A program made the translations under genes and the position numbers. A stretch of DNA of 45,673 nucleotides. It comes from Cyclobacteriaceae bacterium. Lineage in GTDB: Bacteria; Bacteroidota; Bacteroidia; Cytophagales; Cyclobacteriaceae. Location: the NCBI GenBank assembly GCA_016787605.1, contig JAEUUE010000176.1, forward strand, positions 1-45,673. Reading direction: 5' to 3'. Under the pieces are notes generated by a model. The model was given only the letters and a program-made list of their open reading frames with translations, searched no databases and was not told the origin of the DNA. Each line of letters starts with the position of its first letter. Position 1 is the stretch's first letter. This document shows positions 32,234-37,371 of the stretch, piece after piece.

Positions 32234-33250
32234 ATGGACATCATGGCAGTAACGTCAGCCTTCCGGTTTTCTAACGCCCCCGAACCTCATCGCACGCGCA
32301 CCCGTGAAATCATGGTCAAACACCCGCAGGTGAAGACCCTGATCAGCAAAAACCCCATGACCTTCGTCGCCATCCTGGGCCTGGTAGGCGGAATGATTGC
32401 CGGCGCGTGGCTGGTGCGAGACGCCTCCTGGTGGATCGTGGTGCTGGCTGCCTACTTCGGAGGCGCATTTGCCAACCATGCTCTGTTTGTGATGATTCAT
32501 GAATGCACGCATCATCTTCTTTTCAAGAATAAATCACTGAACCAGGCCTCGGCCATCCTGGCGAACCTGCCGCATATGCTGCCCAGCGCCATTTCCTTTG
32601 CGCGCTACCATATCAAGCATCACGCCTTCCAGGGAGTGCATGAGCTGGATGCCGACCTTCCGGATTATTGGGAAGCCCGGCTCATCAATCATTCGGTTTT
32701 CGGAAAGGCCCTGTGGCTACTTTTCTTCCCGATCTTCCAGGCGATCCGCACCGTACGGCTGCGCGAAATCAAGCCGGTGGACGGATGGATCGTGGCGAAC
32801 TGGATAGCCCAGATTGTATTCGACGTCGCCATCTGGATGCTGCTGGGTCCCAAGGCATTCTTCTTCCTCCTCTTCAGTTTCTTTTTTTCTGTGGGGCTGC
32901 ATCCCCTCGGCGCCCGCTGGATCCAGGAGCACTACCTCACCCTGGATGAAAAGCAGGAGACGTACAGTTACTACGGTCCCCTGAATGTGGTCGCCTTCAA
33001 CGTGGGTTACCACAATGAGCATCACGATTTCCCTTCCATTCCCTGGAATAGATTACCCGATCTCAAGAAAGAGGCCCCGGAGTACTATGACACCTTGAAG
33101 TACCACACTTCGTGGACCCGGCTCTTCTTCCGCTTTCTCTTCGACCGCAACATCTCCCTGTACAGCCGGATTGTCCGACAGGAGCGCGGCAAAGTAGCGC
33201 TGAACGACGAGTCGAAGCCCGACACCGAGTTGGCGGCCACAAAAGCATAA
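32234..33250 (+). CDS. Sphingolipid delta(4)-desaturase-like fatty acid desaturase (DEGS1-like)
   Basis: A 338-residue di-iron membrane desaturase with four to six hydrophobic segments. Histidine boxes are HECTH (89-93), HIKHH (126-130) and HNEHH (260-264), in nearly the spacing of human DEGS1. The N-terminal Lipid_DES-type segment RTREIMVKHPQVKTL (about 21-35) and the stretches ETYSYYGPLNVVAFNVGYHN (242-261) and HDFPSIPWNRLPDL match DEGS1 closely. DEGS1 converts dihydroceramide to ceramide. The product is an inner-membrane enzyme needing a reductase, not encoded nearby. A bacterial ceramide or other lipid substrate is inferred. ATG 32243 is an alternative start. The next gene starts 5 bases after its stop. 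Confidence 0.9.
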   Translation: MDIMAVTSAFRFSNAPEPHRTRTREIMVKHPQVKTLISKNPMTFVAILGLVGGMIAGAWLVRDASWWIVVLAAYFGGAFANHALFVMIHECTHHLLFKNKSLNQASAILANLPHMLPSAISFARYHIKHHAFQGVHELDADLPDYWEARLINHSVFGKALWLLFFPIFQAIRTVRLREIKPVDGWIVANWIAQIVFDVAIWMLLGPKAFFFLLFSFFFSVGLHPLGARWIQEHYLTLDEKQETYSYYGPLNVVAFNVGYHNEHHDFPSIPWNRLPDLKKEAPEYYDTLKYHTSWTRLFFRFLFDRNISLYSRIVRQERGKVALNDESKPDTELAATKA

Positions 33251-33255
33251 GTAAG

Positions 33256-33684
33256 ATGGCGCGTTGGCTGGCCTTGGGACTTCTCTGCTTCATGCCCCTT
33301 GCGGCCCTGGCCCAGTCTTCGGACGAGCAGTTTATCCTTGACCTTTCACGGCGTAAGTTTGACTGGCTGATACGCGGAAACGCCGACTCCCTGGATCGCG
33401 TTCTCGACGAACGCCTGGAGTACATTCACTCCAACGGCTGGGTGCAGACGCGTTCCGAGGTCTTGGCCGACATGAAGAGCGGCAAATTGGTCTACCAGCA
33501 AGTTTCCATCAAGTCGGCTTCCGTGCGCCGATATGGGCAAACGGCTGTAGTGACCGGCCTGGGGACATTCGAAGGCATCAATTCCGGGACACCGTTCAAG
33601 CTTGATTTGCGCTACACTGAAGTCTACGTCCTCTCCGGCAATCGTTGGAAATTGGTTTCGAGGCACTCAAACCGAATGCCTTAG
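33256..33684 (+). CDS. Exported NTF2/SnoaL-like (DUF4440-type) protein
   Basis: From ATG 33256 the product is 142 residues with a signal peptide (cleavage near ALAQS, residue 20). The mature part has the cone-shaped fold's pattern: an N-terminal helix (FILDLSRRKFDWLIRGNADSL), LDERLEYIHSNGWVQTRSEVLADMKSGKL, then beta strands ending RWKLVSRHSNRMP. The fold binds small hydrophobic ligands or acts as a simple enzyme, but no catalytic residues can be named. It begins 5 bases after the desaturase and is almost surely co-transcribed, so a link to the desaturase's lipid is possible. A far-upstream in-frame start overlapping the desaturase is rejected. Confidence 0.85.
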   Translation: MARWLALGLLCFMPLAALAQSSDEQFILDLSRRKFDWLIRGNADSLDRVLDERLEYIHSNGWVQTRSEVLADMKSGKLVYQQVSIKSASVRRYGQTAVVTGLGTFEGINSGTPFKLDLRYTEVYVLSGNRWKLVSRHSNRMP

Positions 33685-36000: not shown

Positions 36001-37371
36001 TCACTGCGTCATGGCTTTCAGGATGTCGTGCTGGGTGATGATGTGCACCCGCTCCTGATCATCGCGTACCAATACGGCCTTATTGTTCCGGTTGAGCATG
36101 GAGGAGAGGACATCGAGCGTGGTGTCCTGCGCGACAAACTGCATGGGCTTGTCCATCAAATCAGAGACACGGCTTTCCGTCGCCCTGGGATCGGTGATGA
36201 TCTTTTCCAACAGGCTTGACGAGGCGATGCTGCCCACGAATTCGCCGTTATCTACCACGGGCACCTGGTCGATGCCTTGCTGATTCATGATGCGTATGGC
36301 GTCGCCGATCAGGGCATTGCGTTCCACGGTGAAGAGGCCCCCTTTGTCCTTGCGTTTGCTGAGGATATCACGTGCGGAGGCGAAAGCGCGCTCTTCCAGG
36401 AAACCGTGATCCTTCATCCAGTTGTCATTATACACCTTGTTCAGGTATCGGGTTCCGTGATCGGGAAGCAAGACCACCATGACGTCGTCTTTCTTGAGGT
36501 GGGTGCGTGCATACTCGAGCGCGCCATGAATGGCCGACCCGCTGCTCCAGCCTACGAAGAGACCCTCTTCACGGCTTAGCCGGCGGGCGGCAATGGCCCC
36601 GTCCTTATCGGTCACCTTGATGAATTGATCGATCACGTCGAAGTCGACGTTCTTCGGCAGGATGTCCTCTCCGAAGCCTTCCGTGAGGTACGGATAGATT
36701 TCGTTTTTGTCGAATATGCCGGTCTCCTTATACTTCTTAAAGACCGAGCCGTAGGTATCTATGCCTACGGTGACCAGGTTGGGATTCTTCTCTTTCAGGA
36801 AACGGGCCGTTCCGCACATCGATCCCCCGGTACCTACGGTCGCCACATAGTGGGTGATCTTTCCGCCGGTTTGCTGCCAGATTTCGGGCCCCGTAGTTTC
36901 ATAATGGGCCTTGGCATTGGACGGGTTGTCGTACTGGTTAGGGTAGTAAGAGTTCGGGATCTCCTTGTTGAGTTTGCGGGCGACCGAGTAGTAGGATCGG
37001 GGATCGTCGGGCTCCACGTTGGTCGGGCACACGACCACTTCAGCGCCTACTGCCTTGAGGATATTGATTTTTTCCTGTGATTGCTTGTCGGCCATGGTGA
37101 AGATGCAGCGATAGCCTTTGGCCACCGCCGTAAGGGCCAGGCCCATCCCGGTATTTCCGGAGGTTCCTTCAATGATGGTGCCCCCGGGCTTGAGGAGGCC
37201 CGCTTTTTCCGCGTCTTCAATCATTTTGATCGCCATCCGGTCTTTCGTGCTGTTGCCGGGGTTGAAGTATTCGACTTTGGCAAGAATAGTTCCCGGGATG
37301 CCCTTGGCGATGCGATTCAGGCGTACCATGGGCGTGTTGCCGATGGTCTCAACGATGGAATTGTAAATCAT
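36001..37371 (-). CDS. Cystathionine beta-synthase with C-terminal CBS pair
   Basis: A 456-residue PLP enzyme of the tryptophan synthase beta family. The PLP lysine is in NPGNSTKDR (about 38-46), EGTSGNTGMGLAL (about 69-81) is the substrate loop and VGTGGSMCGT (about 179-188) binds the phosphate. A CBS pair follows (about 340-455: GDAIRIMNQQGIDQVPVVDNGEFVG and DVLSSMLNRNNKAVLVRDD). It condenses serine with homocysteine to cystathionine; cysteine synthase activity is possible, but the CBS pair favours cystathionine beta-synthase. A perfect TACCTTTG lies 5 bases before ATG 37371. The gene stands alone and converges on the SPOR-OmpA gene. Confidence 0.93.
   Translation of the reverse strand: MIYNSIVETIGNTPMVRLNRIAKGIPGTILAKVEYFNPGNSTKDRMAIKMIEDAEKAGLLKPGGTIIEGTSGNTGMGLALTAVAKGYRCIFTMADKQSQEKINILKAVGAEVVVCPTNVEPDDPRSYYSVARKLNKEIPNSYYPNQYDNPSNAKAHYETTGPEIWQQTGGKITHYVATVGTGGSMCGTARFLKEKNPNLVTVGIDTYGSVFKKYKETGIFDKNEIYPYLTEGFGEDILPKNVDFDVIDQFIKVTDKDGAIAARRLSREEGLFVGWSSGSAIHGALEYARTHLKKDDVMVVLLPDHGTRYLNKVYNDNWMKDHGFLEERAFASARDILSKRKDKGGLFTVERNALIGDAIRIMNQQGIDQVPVVDNGEFVGSIASSSLLEKIITDPRATESRVSDLMDKPMQFVAQDTTLDVLSSMLNRNNKAVLVRDDQERVHIITQHDILKAMTQ

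Follow-up and report, generated by a model that had tools for sequence, protein, structure and literature searches.

The window, by which we mean the whole analysed stretch of 45,673 nucleotides from a Cyclobacteriaceae bacterium, encodes a protein that, judged from its sequence, is almost certainly a member of the DEGS family of sphingolipid delta-4 desaturases. The family is a known one, and the protein is a bacterial branch of it. We find it likely that this protein desaturates a sphingoid-type lipid. Its interest lies in the test that it offers of sphingosine-type lipids in Bacteroidota, and in the existence of eukaryote-like copies of the same gene elsewhere in the phylum. The coordinates of the features discussed below are collected in Table 1.

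Table 1. Position of the desaturase gene, of its domains and motifs, and of genes in other loci (window positions unless a locus is named).
Feature	Location	Strand	Basis
DEGS-family desaturase CDS, 338 aa	32234..33250	+	ORF, ATG start, then stop
Lipid_DES (PF08557) N-terminal domain, residues 10-41	32261..32356	+	Pfam
FA_desaturase (PF00487) core, residues 65-287	32426..33094	+	Pfam
Histidine box 1 HECTH, residues 89-93	32498..32512	+	located in translation
Histidine box 2 HIKHH, residues 126-130	32609..32623	+	located in translation
Histidine box 3 HNEHH, residues 260-264	33011..33025	+	located in translation
DEGS signature stretch ETYSYYGPLNVVAFNVGYHN, residues 242-261	32957..33016	+	column identity with three eukaryotic yardstick sequences
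Eukaryote-like f42 copy, G245	L168:4820-5764	+	tree
Eukaryote-like f42 copy, G144	L158:5113-6087	-	tree
Eukaryote-like f42 copies	L202, L203, L204		tree, 100/100
GNAT acyltransferase behind serine palmitoyltransferase	L105:2570-3688	+	adjacency

Membership of the DEGS family

The protein matched the Lipid_DES domain well above the Pfam cut-off (E 1.6e-10, 40.7 bits against 23), which gives a name to the N-terminal family segment that the first-pass annotation had pointed out, and it matched the FA_desaturase core with an E-value of 1.3e-28. The three histidine boxes lie exactly where that annotation had put them. Both domains were present in all 61 rows of an alignment (A1) made of the window protein and 60 of the 80 retained relative loci (E ≤ 0.001 for Lipid_DES), and at the same threshold none of the 14 control genomes had a Lipid_DES match. 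One might still think of an ordinary acyl-lipid desaturase that merely resembles DEGS, because the FA_desaturase domain is common to seven other matches elsewhere in the genome. This is hardly credible, since the gene is alone in its genome in having a Lipid_DES match (E ≤ 0.001) and no curated NCBIfam model fits the protein. The best of these models, the acyl-lipid desaturase DesA, reached 25.3 of the 500 bits that its cut-off demands; the DesB model gave 13.8 of 500 bits, also below its cut-off.

Comparisons with eukaryotic enzymes used human DEGS1, human DEGS2 and fly DES1 as yardsticks, all three as unverified sequences. The window protein is 39-40% identical to these yardsticks, the alignments covering 314-321 positions with E-values from 2e-68 to 2e-78, and its alignment to DEGS1 runs the full length (39%, E 2e-78), which bears out the earlier statement that the resemblance extends along the whole protein. 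The same yardsticks gave E 2e-4 at best against 22 non-DEGS desaturase paralogs from six genomes. A tree including 17 of these 22 paralogs, in which the outgroup branches reach 9.95 changes per column and the root was not used, set all DEGS-type rows and the three eukaryotic yardsticks on one side and the 17 paralogs on the other. The window copy thus groups with DEGS and apart from the ordinary desaturases, the opposite of the placement that the first-pass annotation had named as fatal to its claim. These comparisons rest on unverified yardstick sequences, and Lipid_DES independently leads to the same conclusion.

The residues conserved in the family point the same way. Across the 54 bacterial rows of the main clade (see below) we found 78 near-invariant columns, 56 of which are identical in the three eukaryotic yardsticks; 14 of these 56 are common to at least nine of the 17 ordinary paralogs and 42 are not. 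The metal-ligand histidines are conserved: H89 and H93 of the first box, for example, belong to the near-invariant positions of the main clade, and the yardsticks have the same residues there. Within the signature stretch, E242, T243, S245, Y246, Y247, G248, N251, N256, G258 and H260 are identical in all three yardsticks.

The predicted model of the protein has a mean pLDDT of 72, with values below 50 at residues 256-263, adjoining the third histidine box, which counts against our main reading. In a fold search the model matched a solved member of the membrane di-iron desaturase/hydroxylase fold. A sequence search of solved structures returned three matches only (E 0.48-0.58), and a viral fold library gave distant desaturases only. 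The closest nameable solved enzyme by fold is the hydroxylase AlkB, a likeness at the level of the superfamily. This likeness would suit a C4-hydroxylase, or a mixed hydroxylase-desaturase resembling DEGS2, that produces phytoceramide-type bases, but the third box, HNEHH, is the same as in DEGS1, and we regard such an activity as rather improbable. The top fold matches, 8xks_K and 8xqw_M, come from FtsHi motor complexes of the chloroplast, of which they are subunits, and hint at a desaturase-fold protein in that complex.

Candidate substrates and the proposed reaction

With moderate confidence, we read the protein as a DEGS-family C4-C5 desaturase that would act most likely on dihydroceramide in this organism, with N-acyl-capnine as a possible second substrate, or the sole one in some relatives. 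A membrane-bound di-iron desaturase of this kind would use O2 and electrons from a donor to remove two hydrogens at C4-C5 in the long-chain base. The lipid would be of the sphingoid type, amide-linked and 3-hydroxylated, and the result would be a trans allylic double bond. The sequences themselves show the family membership, the conserved metal-ligand histidines, the first gene of the pathway and the wide spread; from these we infer the reaction, the position and geometry of the double bond, the substrate and the use of an electron donor. The dihydroceramide would be supplied by serine palmitoyltransferase and probably by an acyltransferase encoded beside it. The sulfonolipid precursor N-acyl-capnine may be a second substrate, or the only one in relatives devoid of serine palmitoyltransferase.

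Dihydroceramide is a plausible substrate because the genome has serine palmitoyltransferase, the first gene of the pathway. Its product scored 670.6 bits with NF047600 (cut-off 640), and its best solved match is the serine palmitoyltransferase 8guh/3a2b (527 bits). The lack of sphingolipid synthesis genes, which had been put forward as grounds for dismissing a sphingolipid desaturase, does not apply to this genome. A gene for a GNAT acyltransferase of 373 amino acids starts 13 bases after the last sense codon of the transferase gene, and of the 13 related genomes that bear the transferase, 10 have the two genes side by side. This acyltransferase is probably the N-acyltransferase, and so a candidate ceramide synthase; no curated family names it as such, and solved structures gave no relative of it at E ≤ 0.01.

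The association between desaturase and serine palmitoyltransferase is uneven. Among 101 genomes of the window's class, counting transferases at 490 bits or more, nine have both genes, six the desaturase only, 10 the transferase only and 76 neither (Fisher p 1.2e-4). Among 58 related genomes, counting at 511 bits or more, the corresponding numbers are seven, 11, six and 34 (p 0.085); the shared ancestry of the genomes makes both p values too small. The weak link in these 58 relatives speaks against the dihydroceramide reading, and so do five near-complete carriers of the desaturase (G005, G011, G025, G031 and G054, 97-100% complete) that have no serine palmitoyltransferase match above 260 bits. 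Outside the window's class, a transferase-like gene (E ≤ 1e-95) is present in every one of the 26 carriers and in 261 of the 271 genomes as a whole. Five such examples, four of them from carriers, scored 497-504 bits against the cut-off of 640, and their activity is unsure.

The sulfonolipid is a live alternative because six of the 15 carriers in the window's class lack serine palmitoyltransferase, while all 15 have a gene resembling cysteate fatty acyltransferase. The window's genome has such a gene, of the CapB/SulA type, whose product scored 585 bits with 7u7h, 573 with 28eh, the solved cysteate-C-fatty acyltransferase, and 222 with serine palmitoyltransferase; these scores express similarity only. 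Unsaturated natural capnoids, among them Salinibacter halocapnine and RIF-2, are known from Salinibacter and Algoriphagus. In Alistipes, cysteate fatty acyltransferase starts sulfonolipid synthesis (PMC9304779), and the sulfonolipids of S. ruber are described only as varying in saturation (PMC2596770).

These facts could mean that the enzyme performs the same reaction on N-acyl-capnine only, yielding 4,5-unsaturated capnoids while ceramides stay saturated. The cysteate fatty acyltransferase-like gene accompanies the desaturase in all 15 class carriers, in all nine f42 carriers (f42 belongs to another class of Bacteroidota) and in 15 of the 18 relatives that bear the desaturase, one of which has a mere piece of it at the edge of a contig; the three exceptions (G006, G010 and G029) are assemblies of 530-810 contigs. 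Yet 94 of the 101 class genomes contain the gene, so that finding it in carriers makes a capnoid substrate possible and no more. The gene was found at E ≤ 1e-110 in none of the 17 carriers of f35, f53 and f61, which with the nine of f42 make up the other-class carriers. The curated cysteate synthase CapA was found in none of 58 desaturase-bearing genomes at E ≤ 1e-150, and the controls were equally silent. On balance we judge an exclusive action on N-acyl-capnine unlikely. Serine palmitoyltransferase is present in each of the seven class genomes that lack the cysteate fatty acyltransferase-like gene, and the two first-step genes look complementary in this class.

Two further candidates in the sulfonolipid route were set aside. 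The CBS-type gene at 36001-37371(-) does not qualify as a cysteate synthase, given 514.6 bits against the cystathionine beta-synthase cut-off of 510.25 and 467.3 of 600 bits with CapA; the closest solved relative of its product is 9k2p, a PLP-dependent beta subunit. The clade-specific basic residues K128, R175 and R228 of the desaturase were considered as a sulfonate-binding site and rejected, because the main clade keeps them nearly invariant throughout, the f35 and f53 carriers without the cysteate fatty acyltransferase-like gene included.

We also dropped the genomic neighbourhood as evidence of a sphingoid pathway. Within flanks of up to 6 kb (less at stretch ends) of 93 loci and the window, 94 stretches in all, there was no homologue of serine palmitoyltransferase, the GNAT acyltransferase or the cysteate fatty acyltransferase-like protein (E ≤ 1e-10), which also counts against our main reading. 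The absence of neighbours tying the desaturase to sphingolipids, together with its loose link to serine palmitoyltransferase, would fit an enzyme of DEGS fold that has come to act on a different 3-hydroxy amide lipid, such as glycine or ornithine lipids with 3-hydroxy iso-fatty acids. Yet the N-terminal domain of sphingolipid desaturases and the signature stretch are kept, and nothing positive speaks for such substrates; we think this recruitment quite improbable.

Distribution, age and eukaryote-like copies

The family is widely spread in the phylum. A scan of genome contigs matched at least 593 stretches, at least 584 of them encoding a relative, and the best 80 of these relatives were all from Bacteroidota. 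Among 372 Bacteroidota genomes at least 95% complete, 41 carry a relative at E ≤ 1e-20, each with at least 243 bits: 15 of the 101 in the window's class (presumably Bacteroidia) and 26 of the 271 in other classes. In the 58 related genomes, the window's own included, 20 had a match at E ≤ 0.001, which reached at least 429 bits in 18 and at most 35 bits in two. Cultured species with the gene include Mucilaginibacter oryzae (L070), Chitinophaga japonensis (L061) and Fibrisoma limi (L100). Pattern scans of viral contigs found no relative, and neither plasmids (E ≤ 1e-15) nor phages (E ≤ 1e-10) had a match to the desaturase.

A tree of 62 rows, built from 17 of the 80 retained loci and other DEGS rows from genome searches and retrieved stretches, without paralogs, contains a main bacterial clade of 54 rows that are mostly grouped by class: 34 of the window's class (as far as codes and titles show), 15 of f35 and f53, four of f42 and one of f61. 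Because this clade divides by class, the window copy looks old rather than recently imported. The pattern suits an old gene of Bacteroidota with many losses, and favours this history for the window desaturase. A recent transfer from eukaryotes to the window's lineage is rejected, since in the tree the window copy is surrounded by relatives from its own class, and it is also opposed by an ordinary GC content (0.557, against 0.538-0.595 in seven neighbouring genes) and by synteny with the closest relative among the retained loci (L022, 84%). The same genes flank the desaturase on both sides in L022, so that the gene is not an assembly accident. An open frame at 33091-33681(+) overlaps the 3' end of the desaturase and continues beyond it; a relative of this frame, 49-56% identical, adjoins the desaturase in three other loci (L023, L024 and L025).

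Five copies in f42 (G144, G242, G245, G316 and G424) have a different placement. All five group with the three eukaryotic yardsticks at 100/100, apart from the 54 rows of the main clade; long branches were flagged near this join, which involves three animal sequences only. For two of them, L158 and L168, identity to these animal enzymes is 43-51%; the two of the five that were scanned have the same two Pfam domains as the window protein. Hence f42 has two kinds of copy, as illustrated by G245, a single-contig genome with the eukaryote-like kind, and its genus-mate G132, with the other. A single topology holding all nine f42 rows together was rejected (p-AU 8e-5), the group having been named after the tree was seen. 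Given this split, a transfer between eukaryotes and bacteria, in either direction, would be the simplest account of the eukaryote-like copies. Where the first-pass annotation had left both a horizontal and an ancient origin possible, the tree thus sides with the ancient one for the window copy and indicates transfer only for a small separate group in another class. A bolder proposal is that DEGS is an old Bacteroidota enzyme making the allylic double bond of bacterial sphingolipids and sulfonolipids, and that the final step of ceramide synthesis in eukaryotes was born in bacteria, with the eukaryote-like f42 copies on the donor side; we consider it a long shot.

Bacterial sphingolipids and the known desaturases

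Accounts of bacterial sphingolipids usually present them as simple and saturated. A 2025 paper holds that bacteria generally lack desaturases for higher sphingolipids, a statement that tells against our main reading, yet it reports that Sphingobacterium detergens has a d18:1/24:1 ceramide along with dihydroceramide and quotes such a ceramide for Bacteroides thetaiotaomicron (PMC12724326). Such d18:1 reports alone do not prove a bacterial enzyme of the DEGS type. Varied unsaturation was described in bacterial sphingolipids of the Black Sea, in a paper whose main text does not contain the string 'desatura' (PMC11334938). Among titles and abstract openings, in a literature search of incomplete coverage, we found no report of a bacterial member of the DEGS family. 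The widespread bacterial family makes the presence of 4,5-unsaturated ceramides or sulfonolipids in aerobic Bacteroidota directly testable. If they are made there, a eukaryotic source could no longer be taken for granted when unsaturated sphingoids turn up in samples of soil, water or hosts. The bacterial sequences also serve the question of the origin of the eukaryotic enzyme.

One study describes the delta-4 sphingolipid desaturases as one cluster of membrane desaturases, with no known substrates other than sphingolipids (PMC5037126). The solved structures of AlkB and stearoyl-CoA desaturase 1, whose substrates differ, gave no phmmer match to the window protein at E ≤ 1. Beyond its overall identity, the window protein shares with animal DEGS1 the Lipid_DES domain, the three histidine boxes, the HNEHH form of the third box and the YSYYGPLN signature. 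It differs in lacking the N-terminal MG of DEGS1, a myristoylation site, in its second box (HIKHH instead of HMDHH), and in R228, W229, Q231 and W271 of the bacterial clade, positions at which the eukaryotic yardsticks carry H, F, A/S and G. The DEGS2 yardstick is 40% identical to the window protein and has HVEHH as its third box, where the bacterial enzyme has the HNEHH of DEGS1.
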